Shown: piece by piece, positions 46,488-54,545 of the stretch
How the letters are laid out: each line of letters opens with the position of its first letter
How positions within the stretch are numbered: position 1 is the first letter of the stretch
DNA from: Ruminococcus sp.
Lineage (GTDB): Bacteria > Bacillota > Clostridia > Oscillospirales > Ruminococcaceae
Direction of reading: 5' to 3'
Length of the DNA: 64,000 nucleotides
Assembly: GCA_017622925.1 (NCBI GenBank)
Contig: JAGAQC010000007.1
Span: 35,421-99,420, forward strand
Program-made: the position numbers and the translations under genes
Notes under the pieces: generated by a model
Database searches by the model: none
The model's input: only the letters and a program-made list of their open reading frames with translations
What the model was told of the DNA's origin: nothing

Positions 46488-49400
46488 ATGAAAGATATTC
46501 GTTATGTAGTTGAAGATTATATCAAGAAGCATAAAAGCGGCAAAAGGGCATTTGCGGCTCTTGTTTCTCTGTCTATGCTCGTGTCATTTGCCGTGCCTAT
46601 GATACTTACCGAGCCTGCTGTAAGCCAGACAAAGGACTCCTTCGCTCCCGTTGGGGATTTTTTGGCTACTCCCATGGTTAATGATGCGGTGGAAAATGAA
46701 ATTCCTATGATTTCAAATATGAAAAATGCTGACGGCTACGGCGGAGACAGTCCGCAGTTTCGTTCAGAGGTTGAACTCCTTATCGGTACGGGTCGTGACT
46801 GGACTAATGGCATGACAACTTCCTCGGAGGTTATTGAAGCTGCAAGAAAAAAATATCTCCTTGGCATAGCAAGCGATTTCTGCGTATTTGTTGAAAATGA
46901 TTTTGTTGTTTCTGATTCCGATGCAGAGGGCAGAGTTGCTATAGGAGGGAATCTTGACGCTTCTGCTGTGAAATATACTGATAAGGATGGTGAACATAAA
47001 TCCAACTATCAGGTATGTGCAGGCGACTATATTTCGTCCACTTCCCTTAAGCATACGGATAATTATGAGGGCATTGATAATTTTGCACACTTGATACTCG
47101 GCGGAGAGATGATGAAACAGGTTGCGCCGTTTTCAACAACAAACAAGGGTGCAAATATATGTTCGGTTGGTGAGGAAAGATATAAGAGATTTGTTGTTTC
47201 TAATAAGTTTGATTTAAATGCAAAAAATGGTGACGGTTATATCAATGTTCACGTGGGTGATGACGGAGGCTATATAAGATATAACATAGACCATAACCAT
47301 TATGGTGACGGATCTGCTAATAACGGCGGCGGTGCTTTCAATGATGAAGAATCACAGATTTATCAGACATCTTCTGAAACTTCGCTTATAGATTTTGCGT
47401 CTGAATTCCAGTGGATCAGAGCACGTTCAGCGAAATTATCGAAAACACACGGTATACCGGGTGTTTATGATGAGTCAACGCAAACTCTTACTTTTGAGTA
47501 TCCGCAAGGACTTAATCAGAATGTTGATACTGTTTATTTTGACATTGATACATGGAATCCAAATGTAAAAAATATAAATTTTGTGGGCATTCCGTCAACT
47601 GGTAAATTTTATTCTGACGGAACACCTGAATGTGCAAATATAGTCGTAAACTGTTCTGATTCTGGAACTGTACCGCAGGAAGTTGGTATAGGTGATGCTC
47701 CAAAGGAAACCGTCAAAGCAGTATGCTTTAATGGAACTAAGAGTTCTAACGGCATTCATAATTATATTTCTACCACAATTAATGGTACAGTTATATCAAA
47801 TAACAATAATCAGAACGGCGAAGATGCAAGTAATCCTACATGGACCAATAACACCAAGGCATCTGAGAAAATTCTATATAATTTTCCGAATGCGCAAAAC
47901 ATTTTTCTGAATACAAATTTCAATGGAACTGTTCTTGCACCAAATGCTAATGTATATTCAGACGAAAAGGGTCGTGGACATCTTTCGGGCTCTCTTATTG
48001 CCAAGAGCTTCGAGGGTGGTCTTGAATTTGGTTACAGACCCTACCGCGGCGATTCCTCAATTATGCGTTTAACACCGGGATATGTCATTCCTGTTGATAA
48101 AGTATTTACCAAAGATAATCCCGCAGGCGTAACAGAAGAAGTTAAACTCGCAAACGCACATCTTAGCCTTTATGATGACGAGACAGGAGCTGTTGTTGAC
48201 GCTATAATTACTAATGGTAATACTAATTTCGTCAGCATTCCGTCGGGTATAAATAATAAAGAAGAATACGCTGAAGGGCATGTTATTGAAAAAACATATA
48301 CCCTGAAAGAGGATAAAGCCCCCGACGGATTTGAGAAAACAGATGCACAATATACTGTAACAGTTACAGAGACAATAAAGGACGTCGAGACAGATACAGG
48401 TATTCCGACAAAAATTAATACGGTTGTAAGTATTACCGGTCCGAATGATTACAGTGTAACATTAACGCTTGAAACCGAAGATGTATATTCGTATACAAAT
48501 GGCGGTGTATACGGCGTTATTGCACGTAAAATTACCTTTAACGATGGCAGTGATTACTGTATAACACTTAACGGAAACGGACAAATTATGTGCGCCGGAC
48601 CGACAGACGGTACTTTGGAGGGCGAAAATGTTGTTGCTACAAAGGTAAGTGTAGTTACTGTCCCTACTTCCGTATCGTATACGCAGACAGTTACTGTTAC
48701 TGATGAAAGCGGCAACCCGGTAACACAAACAGAAACAATTTATGAATATAATCCTGATAATCTGAATTATTTCAAGTTGGGACAAATGGCATGGAATGAA
48801 AATGGAGATTGTCCTGTTGAAATTGAATCAATGACAATATACCGTGTAGTTGATAATCAAAGGCAAGAAGATGTAAAAGAAAATATTAAGTTTACCGAAG
48901 GTGGAAATTATCGGTATCCCTATCAATTTGCTGACGGAAGTACAAACCTTGAAAACGTTTATGGTATTAAAATTACATTTGTCGGAACAAAAAAGAGCAA
49001 GTTCAAATTTCAGTACTATAATGAACAAGGCAACGGTGTAAATGTTAATGGTTTTCCCGAAGAAGTATGGATAGATATGGATACTAATGGGACTAATATC
49101 GAAAATTCTGATAAGAAGTCTTACACTTGGTACTATCCTGAGACAATTCCGGAATTAACGATAAGCTCAACAGTAACAGAGATACCTGTAACGACAGAAA
49201 CTGTCGTTTATGAGGATGCTGTAGTTTCGTCGCTTTCATTTTACACGCAGGAACACAATGTAAATGCTGTTGACCCGAATTTTTCGGACAATACGACAAC
49301 CACAGCGGTTGATATTAATTCAGACGGTACAGACGATGCTTATTTCTCTCCCGAAAACATTATGTTTATGCCGGTGCTTACTAACATACCGACTTTTGAA

Positions 49401-52400
49401 AATAAACCGAATCTTAAATTCCAAAAGATCGACAGCGACGGCAATCCCCTTAAAGGTGCGGAAATTGTACTCGAATCAGGAACTATAAATGGCGATACAG
49501 AGAATTTCAGTGCGGTTCCATTTAGTGAGGGGGTCAACGGCTTTAACTGGAATGATAAGCCGTCATCTGATACTATAGATCCGGGACAGTTGAATACGAA
49601 TACTCTTTACAGATTCCGTGAGGAGAATCCGCCCGCAAACTATGAAACGGCAAAACCGATATACTTTGTAAAAAGAACTAACAGCTACATAAGCTGGACA
49701 ACAAACGAAGAGCTTGCGAAAGGCAGCGATTATGATAGCTGGAATAAGCTTGACTTGTCGGAAAATCAAACAATTCAGATGAAAGATGTATTTATCAGCG
49801 GTGCAAAAATACAGCTTAAAAAGGTTGAGTTAGGCACAACAGCACTGCTTAAAGGCGCGTCTTTCGTGCTGAAATGCGGAGAAGATGTTGTCTATCCCGT
49901 AGGCAATACGAATGGATTTGTGGTTACGGACGGCACAATTAATCTGTATAATGAATTCTGCGATCACTCCAATGATTGCAACCCGAAGTATGTCAAGGAC
50001 GGCTATTTGCTCCCCGGAAACTATTCTCTTTTTGAAGTCAAAGCACCCGATAAGTATGACTGCCCTACAGAACCGTTCAGATTTAGGGTCGTAAAGGATA
50101 GTGCAGCAGGTGGGTATAAGGTTGAAGCTATTAATTCAGGTGACTCTTTGCCAATGGAAATACAGTGGGGTACAAACCATGTGAACAAGCATTTCTATCT
50201 GAAAATTGATGAGAATATTTATAACAATGAAGGTCTGGAATTGAAGAATGTTCAGTCAATTGAAATTGTGAGCAATCACAAAGTTGAAAATACTAAAACT
50301 TTTATTACTGATGCATATAATGGTGAAAGTATAACATACACATATGATGATTCTATAAAAGGTTGGAAATGGCATCACGATTTTAATTCTGCAAGTATAA
50401 AAGAATTTCAGTTTCAGAGTTGGAATGGAGATGATTCAAACTATTCTGATATTCGATATATTAAGCTTGTAACTGCTGATGCAACTTATGTTTATGAGGG
50501 CAATTCTGGAGGTTCTGGCGGAGAAACTGGTGACCCTGACCCTAATCCTCCCGATCAACCTGAGCCGGATAATGGAAAAACTATCAATCGGATTTATTGG
50601 AAGAGAGATTCATCTCCTGAATTTATGAAAGTTAAGTATTATCACAAGGACGGAAGCTTTACAGAAGAAGAAATCTCTCAAACCAATTGGTCTGTTGTTA
50701 ATGGTAATGAATACTATTATTCCACTAATAAAGAAAATGTTGTTGGTGTTTGCGTTGCTGTAAGGTCTAATGGATTTTGGAATTTTGAATTTCAAAATGA
50801 TGGGGAACAAGTCTTTCAAATTACTGGTGATAGTAACGGGAATAAAATATTCACATCTGGTGAATTTCCCGATAACGCAAAATATGACCAAAGTATTTTC
50901 CCGGCTAAAACGACACCAGATGTACCAACAGAAGAACCGACAGGAAAAACTATCAATCAAATTTGTTGGAATGAACATTCTGCTCCTAAGTATATGATAG
51001 TTAGATTTCTTTATAGCAATGACACAACTGAAGATAAAGTAATTACTGGTTGGTATAATGATAACCAAAATTGGTATTGCGATATTAATGAAAAAAATGT
51101 TGTTGGTGTTTGCGTTGCTGTAAGGTATAACGCTTCTCCTTGGAATTTTGATCTTAAATATGATGATGGTTCTTCTTTGAGTTTGGGTTATAGTGGAAAA
51201 TTCCAAATTGTTACTGTAAACAGCAATGGAAATATATATATAGAGAAAACTATGCCTGAAAGTGTAAGATTTGATCAAAGTATATTTGACGAATTTCCAG
51301 TTTCAACATTCTCACTCTACAATATACCAAACCTTAAAACGGCGGCATTAAAACGCAGTTCATATCCGTTGCCTATGGTATTAGAAGCTAACAGTAAAGC
51401 GGAGGGCGAACAGGTTTCAGAGCCAACAGGAACAACTGAAACTACAGAAACACCTCTTGCAATTAACGTAACATCTAATGCAGAAACAGGCTATTACGAT
51501 ATAGAAGTACCAAATAAGCCTGCCGGCGACACAATGAACGTTACAGTCAAAAAGGTATGGGACGATACGGGCTATGAGTATCTCGAACAGGACGTTCAGG
51601 TTCAGCTCATGAAGGACGGCGTAAAATATGAAGCCGAAGGAGTTGAAAATTTTGAAAATCCTGTTACGCTGACTGCTGATACTGAATGGGCGTACACATG
51701 GAATAATCTTCCTCGTGATGAAAACACAGTCTACAGCGTTGTGGAAATTGGTGTTGATAGTACTAAATACGACGTAAAGTATAGTCCGGAAGAACTTTCA
51801 GTAGGCGGCGGTATAACCATAACAAATAAGCTGAATAAGATCAACATTACAGCGGAGAAAGAGTGGACTGGATTTGATCAGGAAAATGCTAATTATATTG
51901 ATTATCCCGAAGTAACTGTTAAGGTTCAGTATAAGCAGAGTAATGAAAACGAATGGAGAGATGTTCCTAATACTTCCGCAAGGCTTACGGCTGCTGAACA
52001 CTGGACGCACGAATTCAGCGGACTTCCGGCAGGATATGAATACCAAATAGTTGAAGTTGGCGAGTATCCCGGCTGGGAAAAGCTTAATAACGGCATAGGT
52101 GCAGTTACATTAGACAGCGAAACTAATATCAGAACAGGAACTGTAATAAACACTCTTGATTCGGGTTCGCTCGTAATCAATAAAGACTGGTTGGGTGATA
52201 CCTCCGAACACGATTCAGTTAAAGTTAAGATTTACCGCGATGTTGACAGATATGCTGAAAAGTCTAATATAACAGCAGTTCCGGCTCAGAGTATATACGA
52301 GGATTATGGCAGACTTTTGCAGTACTCGCTTTTCCTGTATGATGAAAATATGTGCGGCAATGATGTAGGTGAACAATCTGCGCTCACGTGGCGTGATGAC

Positions 52401-54545
52401 TGCCATACATTCGCCGGTATGGTTCAAGGCGGATATCATGACGCCGGCGACCATGTAATGTTCGGACTTCCGCAGGGATTCACGGCTTCAACGCTTGGCT
52501 GGACATTCTATGAATACAGTGCATCTTTCAACAGTCTCGGACTTACGGATCACTATCAGGCAATTATGAAGCGTTTCTGTGATTTCTTTGTTGCGGCATC
52601 ACCAATGGAAAACGGAGAAGTTACAAGAGTTCTGTATCAGAGAGGTACAGGCGAAACAGACCATCAGCAGTGGATAACGCCGGAAAAACAGACAGATAAA
52701 AGCAAATTCGGCGATGAATACTGGGCGGACGGTACTAATGCAAAAGCAAGCGATATTGCGGCAGAATATGCGGCGGCACTTGCACTGTATGCTTTGAACT
52801 TCCCTGATGAAAACACTGATGAATATCTCAATCATGCAAAGGCACTCTATGAAGCTTCAACAAGGTGGAACGGACGTACTAACGTAGGTACGCGTGAGGG
52901 CGATAAAACAGATACAGGAAGCTTCTACTGGGTAGCTGACGGCGACGGCGGAACATATCTTGACGAGCAGTTCTGGGCGGCTGAATGGCTCTACCTTGCT
53001 ACGGGCGATGAGAAATATAAGACTGCCTGCGATGAATTGCGTAATCAGAAAATTCAACTTGAAAATAGTCATACTGGAAACGACAGTTTCAGCTATATCA
53101 ATAACCGTGGTCATTTTTGGGACGATGTAACGCTCGGCGCAGAGATCGTTTATCAGTCGCGTATCAATGAAAATGCCGACTGGAGATATGTAAACGAATT
53201 CCTCGGCGAAAACTGCAAGGATTCCTATACTTACAATGACAGTAAGTGCGATACGTCTTATCTGTATCTTGACCCTTGGGGAAATTCCCGTCACAACACG
53301 CTTACACAGCTTGCGGCGCTCACCACGTCAAAGTATACGGGTACGGATCACAGCAAGTGGGCTAAAACGCAGATGAACCATATTCTTGGTGAGAATCCTG
53401 CTAAAACTTGCTTTGTTGTAGGATTTGCAGATAATTCCGCAAAGCATCCTCAGCATAGAGCTGCGGCTTCTGCAAATGGCAACTGGGATAGAAACGATTA
53501 TGAAGATAATAGTAAATACGCTGTCGGCGCACTTGTTGCCGGTGACGGTTGGTCTGAGAGCGGATTGCAGGGTGTTGAATATGGTGCGTCACATCATAAC
53601 AATCAAAAATATATAGAATATACAGATAGTGTAAGAGATTATGTGTCAAATGAGGTTGCGCTTGACTACAACGCAGGTCTTGTAGGCGCGGCTGCTGCAC
53701 TGTTCTATAATTTCAATACCGGCGTGCCGGAAAATGACACAACAACCGGTTTAAGTTCAAAGTCGCTTTCTGATTTCAAAGTTGACAAATATCTCGCTCC
53801 AGAGAATCCCATGAGTATGCCGAACCGCCAAAATGCAAAAGAATCTGAAATGCTGCATAATACAAATGATACGCTCTATGCACCTGTTGAGATTAACACG
53901 GCTGATATTGATGAAAAATATATGGTTGTTATGAATATCGGTCAGGAATCAGAGCTTAACATAACAGGCGGCACGTTTGCCGGATTTATGGACGAAGTTT
54001 TGAAAAAAGAAGATATTGTTGAAAATGGAAAAACTCAATATGCTTCTTATAATGAAACTACTGGAAAAATCAAAGCTGATGAAAACGGTACGACAAATAT
54101 TATCCTGAAAAAACCGGATAACAGTTACGCTGTAGTTCCGCTTGTAATTCAGCTTCAGGCGGCAGTTCCGACTATACCAGAAGCGGTGCTTGTTGATGAA
54201 ATTACTCTCAGCGAGAATAACTGGACACAAACGCTTGATCTTCCTCGTTGTGATTCTATGGGCAGACCATACAGATACTATGCTGTTGAGGTAGGTGACG
54301 GAACTTCCGGAAATATAACAAACAATGGCGCGGTATATGTTCCTACTTATATCAACAACGGTATAGAACTGTCGGAAAACAGTAATTCTATTACAATATC
54401 AAACCATAAAACAACAGAAAATGCAGGTATTTCGATGCCGTCAGCAGGCGGCGGAGGTACTCGCGGTTACTATGTCATAGGCATGGTGATCACATGTGCG
54501 GCAGGTGCGTTTATGTTCCTCAGACGCAGACGAACGGCAAAATAA
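46488..54545 (+). CDS. Giant surface protein with a GH9 domain apparently nested in a split Cna-B domain
   Basis: 2685 residues, start set by GGAGGAGAG. Order: signal (about 1-47); choice-of-anchor-A adhesin region (about 115-525); SpaA/prealbumin-like domains near 530-630, 974-1095 and 1108-1210; two tandem modules of about 118 residues (1362-1605); Cna-B domains at about 1681-1780 and 1781-1888; first part of a third Cna-B (1890-1920, INKDWLGDTSEHDSVKVK); GH9 domain (about 1930-2410) with Asp1985/Asp1988 (YHDAGDH), His2320/His2323 (HPQHR) and Glu2389 (SNEVALDYNAG); BIG2-like segment; second Cna-B part (about 2566-2640); then MPSAGGGG, a membrane segment and RRRRTAK. It is presumably wall-anchored and acts on beta-glucan at the cell surface. 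Confidence 0.9.
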   Translation: MKDIRYVVEDYIKKHKSGKRAFAALVSLSMLVSFAVPMILTEPAVSQTKDSFAPVGDFLATPMVNDAVENEIPMISNMKNADGYGGDSPQFRSEVELLIGTGRDWTNGMTTSSEVIEAARKKYLLGIASDFCVFVENDFVVSDSDAEGRVAIGGNLDASAVKYTDKDGEHKSNYQVCAGDYISSTSLKHTDNYEGIDNFAHLILGGEMMKQVAPFSTTNKGANICSVGEERYKRFVVSNKFDLNAKNGDGYINVHVGDDGGYIRYNIDHNHYGDGSANNGGGAFNDEESQIYQTSSETSLIDFASEFQWIRARSAKLSKTHGIPGVYDESTQTLTFEYPQGLNQNVDTVYFDIDTWNPNVKNINFVGIPSTGKFYSDGTPECANIVVNCSDSGTVPQEVGIGDAPKETVKAVCFNGTKSSNGIHNYISTTINGTVISNNNNQNGEDASNPTWTNNTKASEKILYNFPNAQNIFLNTNFNGTVLAPNANVYSDEKGRGHLSGSLIAKSFEGGLEFGYRPYRGDSSIMRLTPGYVIPVDKVFTKDNPAGVTEEVKLANAHLSLYDDETGAVVDAIITNGNTNFVSIPSGINNKEEYAEGHVIEKTYTLKEDKAPDGFEKTDAQYTVTVTETIKDVETDTGIPTKINTVVSITGPNDYSVTLTLETEDVYSYTNGGVYGVIARKITFNDGSDYCITLNGNGQIMCAGPTDGTLEGENVVATKVSVVTVPTSVSYTQTVTVTDESGNPVTQTETIYEYNPDNLNYFKLGQMAWNENGDCPVEIESMTIYRVVDNQRQEDVKENIKFTEGGNYRYPYQFADGSTNLENVYGIKITFVGTKKSKFKFQYYNEQGNGVNVNGFPEEVWIDMDTNGTNIENSDKKSYTWYYPETIPELTISSTVTEIPVTTETVVYEDAVVSSLSFYTQEHNVNAVDPNFSDNTTTTAVDINSDGTDDAYFSPENIMFMPVLTNIPTFENKPNLKFQKIDSDGNPLKGAEIVLESGTINGDTENFSAVPFSEGVNGFNWNDKPSSDTIDPGQLNTNTLYRFREENPPANYETAKPIYFVKRTNSYISWTTNEELAKGSDYDSWNKLDLSENQTIQMKDVFISGAKIQLKKVELGTTALLKGASFVLKCGEDVVYPVGNTNGFVVTDGTINLYNEFCDHSNDCNPKYVKDGYLLPGNYSLFEVKAPDKYDCPTEPFRFRVVKDSAAGGYKVEAINSGDSLPMEIQWGTNHVNKHFYLKIDENIYNNEGLELKNVQSIEIVSNHKVENTKTFITDAYNGESITYTYDDSIKGWKWHHDFNSASIKEFQFQSWNGDDSNYSDIRYIKLVTADATYVYEGNSGGSGGETGDPDPNPPDQPEPDNGKTINRIYWKRDSSPEFMKVKYYHKDGSFTEEEISQTNWSVVNGNEYYYSTNKENVVGVCVAVRSNGFWNFEFQNDGEQVFQITGDSNGNKIFTSGEFPDNAKYDQSIFPAKTTPDVPTEEPTGKTINQICWNEHSAPKYMIVRFLYSNDTTEDKVITGWYNDNQNWYCDINEKNVVGVCVAVRYNASPWNFDLKYDDGSSLSLGYSGKFQIVTVNSNGNIYIEKTMPESVRFDQSIFDEFPVSTFSLYNIPNLKTAALKRSSYPLPMVLEANSKAEGEQVSEPTGTTETTETPLAINVTSNAETGYYDIEVPNKPAGDTMNVTVKKVWDDTGYEYLEQDVQVQLMKDGVKYEAEGVENFENPVTLTADTEWAYTWNNLPRDENTVYSVVEIGVDSTKYDVKYSPEELSVGGGITITNKLNKINITAEKEWTGFDQENANYIDYPEVTVKVQYKQSNENEWRDVPNTSARLTAAEHWTHEFSGLPAGYEYQIVEVGEYPGWEKLNNGIGAVTLDSETNIRTGTVINTLDSGSLVINKDWLGDTSEHDSVKVKIYRDVDRYAEKSNITAVPAQSIYEDYGRLLQYSLFLYDENMCGNDVGEQSALTWRDDCHTFAGMVQGGYHDAGDHVMFGLPQGFTASTLGWTFYEYSASFNSLGLTDHYQAIMKRFCDFFVAASPMENGEVTRVLYQRGTGETDHQQWITPEKQTDKSKFGDEYWADGTNAKASDIAAEYAAALALYALNFPDENTDEYLNHAKALYEASTRWNGRTNVGTREGDKTDTGSFYWVADGDGGTYLDEQFWAAEWLYLATGDEKYKTACDELRNQKIQLENSHTGNDSFSYINNRGHFWDDVTLGAEIVYQSRINENADWRYVNEFLGENCKDSYTYNDSKCDTSYLYLDPWGNSRHNTLTQLAALTTSKYTGTDHSKWAKTQMNHILGENPAKTCFVVGFADNSAKHPQHRAAASANGNWDRNDYEDNSKYAVGALVAGDGWSESGLQGVEYGASHHNNQKYIEYTDSVRDYVSNEVALDYNAGLVGAAAALFYNFNTGVPENDTTTGLSSKSLSDFKVDKYLAPENPMSMPNRQNAKESEMLHNTNDTLYAPVEINTADIDEKYMVVMNIGQESELNITGGTFAGFMDEVLKKEDIVENGKTQYASYNETTGKIKADENGTTNIILKKPDNSYAVVPLVIQLQAAVPTIPEAVLVDEITLSENNWTQTLDLPRCDSMGRPYRYYAVEVGDGTSGNITNNGAVYVPTYINNGIELSENSNSITISNHKTTENAGISMPSAGGGGTRGYYVIGMVITCAAGAFMFLRRRRTAK
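50574..51292 (+). repeat. Two tandem copies of an about 118-residue module within the surface protein
   Basis: Copy 1 starts GKTINRIYWKRDSSPEFMKV (residue about 1362), copy 2 GKTINQICWNEHSAPKYMIV (about 1484). Both share ENVVGVCVAVR and W-N-F and end (K/R)(Y/F)DQSIF. A stretch of about 29 bases around GTTGTTGGTGTTTGCGTTGC is identical in both copies. The region is more AT-rich than the flanks. The module is not recognised; the Trp/Tyr-rich beta pattern would suit glycan binding. Confidence 0.75.

Follow-up and report, generated by a model that had tools for sequence, protein, structure and literature searches.

A GH9 cellulase predicted to sit inside a split Cna-B domain of a tip-pilin-like surface protein from Ruminococcus

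The giant surface protein encoded in the window, the 64,000-nucleotide stretch of Ruminococcus sp. DNA analyzed here, raises the question of how a cellulase is held when strands resembling a Cna-B domain lie on both sides of it. A preliminary description had proposed that a single Cna-B domain is split around the GH9 enzyme. Below, we ask how such a protein would be displayed, whether its enzyme is intact, and whether the two flanks belong to one domain. Our overall reading, which we consider probable, is that it is a sortase-anchored, tip-pilin-like protein whose last Cna-B domain holds the GH9 domain and a spacer in the loop after its second strand, is clamped by an isopeptide bond, and is carried on a pilus in those relatives that have the operon.

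Layout of the giant protein and its gene neighborhood

The protein is the product of one open reading frame (Table 1), in which Pfam reports pAdhesive_15, SpaA in three stretches, Cna_B in two stretches, and one GH9 domain. The residue numbers of the preliminary description proved exact (Lys1899, Asp1985/Asp1988, HPQHR at 2320, Glu2389, Glu2601, Asn2639), and the two intact Cna-B domains that it placed before the split one are both recognized by our family model. The N-terminal half of the split domain reads SLVINKDW...VKVKIYRD and the C-terminal half reads ITLSENNW...YRYYAVEV...ITISN. Between these half-domains (1918 to 2567) lies an insert of 648 residues, consisting of GH9 and the spacer, and the span from lysine to asparagine is 740 residues. 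The segment after the enzyme had been called BIG2-like, a label that stands only in part: Pfam gives no match in the spacer (2402-2566) of the window protein, and it finds Big_2 after GH9 in three relatives (L045, L046, L052). In the alignment, which is loose there, the spacer occupies the position of the Big_2-containing stretches of relatives. The sorting signal was read by eye, and the profile scans returned no anchor match to it in the window protein; its MPSAGG aligns with MPSTGG, LPSTGG, LPEAGG, and MPSAGG at the C-termini of relatives.

Table 1. Features of the giant surface protein, with positions numbered along the window.
Feature	Residues	Positions	Strand	Basis
Open reading frame, giant surface protein (2685 aa)		46488..54545	+	ORF list
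pAdhesive_15 / choice-of-anchor-A domain	125-515	46860..48032	+	Pfam 4.6e-25; TIGR04215 5.7e-23
SpaA (prealbumin-like), best of three stretches	1107-1206	49806..50105	+	Pfam
Intact Cna-B domain 1 (best Pfam Cna_B stretch)	1685-1781	51540..51830	+	Pfam Cna_B; family model 64.2 bits
Intact Cna-B domain 2	1785-1889	51840..52154	+	Family model 44.6 bits; AlphaFold strands
N-half of split Cna-B domain 3 (two strands; contains Lys1899 and Trp1901)	1891-1918	52158..52241	+	Alignment, models
GH9 catalytic domain, with Asp1985, Asp1988, and Glu2389	1940-2401	52305..53690	+	Pfam 1.7e-78
Spacer closing the insert	2402-2566	53691..54185	+	Alignment
C-half of split Cna-B domain 3 (other strands; contains Glu2601 and Asn2639)	2567-2646	54186..54425	+	Alignment, joined-half tests
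Putative sorting signal: MPSAGG, hydrophobic segment, RRRRTAK		54435..54542	+	Sequence reading

The pilus context of this protein type was overlooked in the preliminary description: most judgeable relatives head a pilus operon. Neighborhoods were fetched for 22 GH9 proteins (the window protein, L040-L053, and L104-L110), five of which (L041, L044, L049, L050, L108) could not be judged because their contigs end. Among the remaining 17, which include the window protein, 14 have a major-pilin-type gene, or its start, directly downstream (L040, L045-L048, L051-L053, L104-L107, L109, L110), corresponding to 14 of 16 relatives. Ten of these 14 also have a sortase, an LPQTGxLWWPV protein, and a second sortase, and L052, L105, and L106 have a sortase. 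Sortases were recognized by motif, with profiles run on two operons: that downstream of L051 (L084) and one in the window's own genome (L090). In these, the class C sortase model NF033745 scored 266.5 and 268.9 bits, respectively (cut-off 160), the pilin model TIGR04226 passed its threshold both times, and the scores of 91.1 and 32.4 bits for the SpaH/EbpB major pilin model fell short of the cut-off of 95. The LPQTGxLWWPVP protein and a second, divergent sortase close many pilus operons (for example, L084:3268-4964). This protein has no NCBIfam match in L084 and a weak EF0750-type match in L090; it is possibly a basal pilin, and the second sortase possibly the wall-anchoring one. In relatives encoded in such an operon, its class C sortase would link the giant protein to the major pilin through the sorting motif. 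The cellulase would thereby lie at the far end of the pilus and could reach and nick plant cellulose with the cell still tethered.

The neighborhood that we looked for in a tip pilin was not found at the window locus itself, where none of the ten flanking ORFs scanned is a pilus gene; the neighbors are a polysaccharide deacetylase, two M42 peptidases, a weak GNAT match, a methionine gamma-lyase-like gene, and a kinase. This finding fits a rival account to which we give somewhat less than an even chance, namely that the window protein is an ordinary wall-anchored enzyme, attached by the housekeeping sortase and not a pilus subunit, with a split Cna-B domain that only stiffens the base of the enzyme. 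Two members of the window protein's group in the GH9 tree, L042 and L043, point the same way, as no pilus operon was seen beside either of them (2.3 kb separate L043 from its contig end). Against this account, 14 of the 16 judgeable relatives directly precede a major-pilin-type gene, including L040 of the window's own tree group, and the window's genome has a pilus operon on another contig (C71; L090) with a major pilin, a class C sortase, an LPQTG protein, and a second sortase. Contig C71 ends just upstream of the pilin, and thus the operon's own first gene is not visible. Given that no operon stands beside the window copy, a tip-pilin-like protein made from it would either be added to pili produced by the C71 operon or be anchored directly to the wall.

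The GH9 domain and its relatives

The enzyme had been described as intact, with its Asp pair, HPQHR, and Glu in place, and this description is borne out. The domain is assigned to GH9 by profile (Table 1) and by its (alpha/alpha)6 fold, and it retains Asp1985, Asp1988, and Glu2389, which we take to be the catalytic residues. A phmmer search with the domain retrieved CelT (2yik, 7.3e-62) and Cel9M (1ia6, 3.9e-51). No dockerin was detected by Pfam in the 2685 residues of the window protein (E<=0.1), and we rejected a cellulosomal enzyme because none was found. The proposal that the protein is a surface cellulase of domain-in-domain design, and not a cellulosomal one, holds at the level of sequence, given the architecture in relatives, the Cna-B score, the conserved triad, and the lack of a Pfam dockerin match.

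A second rival account, which we consider unlikely, is that the GH9 domain serves mainly as a tip adhesin that grips cellulose, its hydrolysis weak or lost, comparable to the adhesion domains of RrgA and Spy0125. The position of the gene as first in the operon would suit an adhesin, as would the occurrence of CBM4_9 or CBM77 in the same region of other such proteins and the loss of the conserved Glu in one relative. This relative, the tip-type protein L110 (G087:C103), has NGIGTDYN in place of NEVALDYN, and its GH9 domain may thus bind rather than cut. In opposition to a mainly adhesive role, both Asp residues are kept in all 18 aligned proteins (the window protein and 17 relatives) and the Glu in 17 of 18.

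In a midpoint-rooted GH9 tree, 19 tip-type domains group into a single clade with a support of 0.922, separate from 30 other GH9 domains of the genus, which were picked by similarity to the window and seven of which come from the window's own genome. A length filter dropped the tip proteins L048, L104, and L105, two other complete GH9s (L020, L022), and 15 partial ones. Six other GH9 proteins were scanned, five of them on the sister side (L006, L016, L026, L030, L031). All five are GH9-DUF5620 enzymes, the nearest GH9 relatives of the tip clade in this sample; Pfam found Cna_B in none of the five and a dockerin in three, two of these just under the cut-off. The simplest reading of these sequences would be one transfer of a cellulosomal-type GH9 into a tip protein.

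The GH9 domain of L052 (G002:C29, protein residues about 1440-1930) looks circularly permuted. GGYHDAGDH directly follows the Cna-B half, and the segment normally found at the N-terminus (NYAKLLQYSLYFYDANMCG...TWRKDCH) is placed behind the C-terminal end of the barrel, all in one open frame. This order could reflect either a natural permutation or misassembly.

A probable single Cna-B domain from two halves

Pfam Cna_B reports nine of ten joined domains, the window's being the one that is unreported at E<=1, and in the four reported cases whose halves were also scored apart the joined domain outscored either half. Because Pfam misses the window's joined halves, we built a family model from 217 Cna-B domains of 61 related giant proteins, with the window excluded. 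On this model the window's halves scored 59.2 bits when joined, compared with 17.0 for the N-half and 43.1 for the C-half alone. None of 2000 controls, comprising 500 each of the N-half with random partners, the N-half with shuffled partners, the C-half with random partners, and the C-half with shuffled partners, reached the joined score (top control 50.3). Twelve of the training domains are C-terminal last domains that could carry split C-halves, some possibly bridged by HMMER, and the test was therefore repeated without them. With the resulting 205-domain model (60 proteins) the joined halves scored 55.6 bits, the N-half 16.2, and the C-half 39.5, with the protein's own intact Cna-B domains at 64.2 and 44.6; again none of the 2000 controls reached the joined score (top control 47.9). 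In nine relatives scored on the 205-domain model, the joined score (33.4 to 68.3) likewise exceeded both halves. An earlier model from seven contiguous domains was weak: the joined halves scored 30.3 bits on it, and two of the four control sets each contained 1 control in 300 that reached this score.

Searching 177,635 PDB sequences with a profile of the ten joined domains returned the B region of the S. aureus collagen adhesin first (1d2p, E=4.6e-27), with an alignment that crosses the join. The C-half profile alone matched 1d2p at 1.9e-7 only. This best structural match consists of contiguous repeats with no cargo in the aligned sequence. The second match was the pilus protein SpaC (6m48, about 0.0015), and those below it were weak and mostly unrelated.

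The expected isopeptide triad of Lys1899, Glu2601, and Asn2639 is invariant in all 18 aligned proteins, as is Trp1901 of the N-half. The lysine lies on the first strand, the asparagine on the last, and the glutamate between them, the arrangement looked for in a Cna-B domain. Inserts in ten measured proteins range from 575 to 1318 residues. The 18-row alignment omits L041, L044, and L049, which have the N-half and GH9 but are truncated by, or close to, the end of a contig. It also omits L052, in which GH9 is rearranged; for L183 (G499) and L184 (G041), the reading covered the surroundings of the junction.

Structure models are of moderate confidence. AlphaFold gave a pLDDT of 67.3 and a pTM of 0.60 for the window fragment, with two strands in the N-half and six elements in the C-half, one of three residues; for L040 the values were 74.1 and 0.62, with two strands in the N-half and five in the C-half. 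For reference, intact Cna-B domain 2 has seven strand elements in the window model, one of only three residues. A Foldseek search with the window model matched Cel9M (TM 0.84 by target length), confirming the GH9 fold only, and the 50 matches listed for this model included no Cna-B.

According to a third rival account, the flanks are degenerate remnants, or two unrelated sets of strands in a linear chain, and no domain forms across the insert. The missing Pfam report for the window's joined halves is compatible with this, and Cna-B-type proteins contain many similar strands, so that partial matches are common. Automatic sorting into contiguous and split domains was noisy for the same class of protein: applied to 60 proteins with a C-terminal Cna-B match it was unreliable, as HMMER bridged the last domain with strands of a neighboring repeat and five GH9 members were wrongly called contiguous (the cases quoted here were read by eye). 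Against unrelated flanks stand the 2000 controls, none of which matched the joined score; the Lys, Glu, and Asn residues, invariant in 18 of 18 proteins despite inserts of such different lengths; and the two AlphaFold models, both of which divide the strands as two in the N-half and the remainder in the C-half. We regard this account as very improbable. On our family models and in the PDB profile search, though not on Pfam Cna_B, the window's two half-domains match one Cna-B, as had been proposed, and we consider the split-domain architecture of the window protein confirmed as far as sequence can establish it.

If so, the halves would fold together around the base of the insert, and Glu2601 would promote a bond between Lys1899 on the first strand and Asn2639 on the last. 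Such a cross-link would close the cellulase into a covalent ring. A pulling force applied at the end with the sorting motif would then be expected to pass along the last strand, across the cross-link, and along the first strand to the preceding Cna-B domains, bypassing the enzyme.

The same arrangement, which the preliminary description had suggested looking for, was found elsewhere in Ruminococcus. Counting only matches to an N-half/GH9 junction model that start at position 3 or earlier of its 112 positions, we found the junction at at least 22 loci in at least 21 of 125 genus genomes, the window included, and none of the 22 has a stop inside. A search of the family (396 genomes, eight of them in the genus, with at most 11 candidates scored per genome) added one locus (G499) among about 388 genomes outside the genus. 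Two early-starting matches were left uncounted, in G037 (position 8, one stop inside, 637-aa frame) and G367 (position 5, 852-aa frame); the other matches listed start at position 14 or later, which fits a GH9 domain without a Cna-B half. Fifteen relatives aligned over the junction share just 45-54% identity with the window. When named genomes were scanned with the C-half, the 20 records obtained were without exception metagenome bins; 12 are titled Ruminococcus (one R. flavefaciens), and several come from deer, goat, and sheep guts. The window genome is in 76 contigs and 87.77% complete and its titled relatives are MAGs, yet an assembly or binning artefact that fused two genes has a negligible chance of being correct and was rejected because the junction recurs across genomes, uninterrupted by stops and at this level of divergence.

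Two side observations concern individual genomes. G122 gave 16 C-half matches (contigs C8, C17, C44, C48, C55, C56, C66), and as several of the frames measure 2600-3700 aa, its complement of giant surface proteins is unusually large. In L043 (G123:C12, 8815-10494, minus strand), the N-terminal part and hydrophobic start lie in a separate, overlapping ORF just upstream of the giant one, which suggests a frameshift.

Other cargo, known systems, and implications

GH9 is not the only enzyme found inside these domains. A motif search of 79 long ORFs located SGNH hydrolases inside Cna-B domains of seven giant proteins, with Pfam confirming each SGNH. Five occupy the loop that follows strand two of an internal Cna-B (L098, L116, L121, L146, L149); L112 has its SGNH in the last Cna-B, together with another segment, and L144 after the first strand. 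SGNH/GDSL insertions thus use two different Cna-B loops. With boundaries set by eye, each of the seven SGNH-split domains scored higher on the 217-domain model with its halves joined than any of 400 shuffles did, by a narrow margin in L116, L144, and L149. A pilin gene adjoins six of the seven proteins, and none was seen for L098.

In other proteins CBM4_9, CBM77, and Big_2 are located in the region before the last C-half. CBM77 modules occupy this place in the tip-type proteins L142 and L143, from other genera of the family. Reading by eye, we also found in other genera a contiguous last Cna-B with a long loop at the same insertion point (L157, L158, L160) and small inserts in the last Cna-B (L148, L153, L154, L156). 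It is an evenly balanced proposition that fiber-degrading Ruminococcus and some related genera use Cna-B domains of giant tip pilins as interchangeable, covalently closed sockets for plant-cell-wall enzymes, with GH9 in the last domain, SGNH in internal or last ones, and perhaps CBM4_9 or CBM77. Enzyme-tipped pili would then work alongside the cellulosome, and the isopeptide bond would divert force away from the enzyme.

The inserted domain of the pneumococcal tip pilin RrgA is of the vWFA type and is not an enzyme, and the inserted part of Spy0125/Cpa is a thioester adhesion domain. RrgA, the tip pilin of S. pneumoniae pilus-1, resembles the window protein in having a domain inserted in an isopeptide domain whose halves are locked across about 500 residues; in the cited account, D3 is inserted in D2, and the bond joins Lys191 to Asn695 with Asp600 as the acid (PMC5333627). 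Its frame is described as CnaA-like (PMC12617251) and uses Asp, whereas the window protein has a Cna-B frame with Glu and a GH9 cargo. In Spy0125 (K297-D595), a CnaB-like domain has a large insertion between the bond-forming residues (PMC12617251); Cpa sits at the tip of the S. pyogenes pilus (PMC7900414). Spy0125/Cpa differs from the window protein in that its bond is to Asp rather than Asn, and in being a pathogen's adhesin rather than the enzyme of a fiber degrader.

In the man-made SpyRing constructs, an enzyme lies between two partners that become locked together when an isopeptide bond forms spontaneously (PMC4748275); this is the same topology that we infer for the split Cna-B and GH9. 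Sortase anchoring is shared by ScaE of cellulosomes (PMC2930009) and proteins of the window type, and sortase-anchored carbohydrases are reported elsewhere (PMC3617157). A 2025 survey, in the parts that bear on this point, describes the cargo inserted in isopeptide domains as usually isopeptide or adhesion domains (PMC12617251). Among the open-licence PMC papers listed, judged by their titles and opening abstract lines, we found none that reports an enzyme inserted in a Cna-B domain or a tip pilin carrying a cellulase. Isopeptide domains with insertions are already known from RrgA and Spy0125; what is new, as far as we found, is the enzyme cargo.

With relatives that have this design in the first gene of a pilus operon, it may be that certain rumen-type bacteria present their plant-degrading enzymes on hair-like pili. 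If this is true, the split Cna-B domain would be a natural counterpart of SpyRing-type cyclization, present with two enzyme families, and would supply insertion sites that protein engineers could use directly to make enzymes more robust. Some gut fiber degraders would then display cellulases at covalent pilus ends in addition to cellulosomes, and their attachment to fiber would be directly testable.
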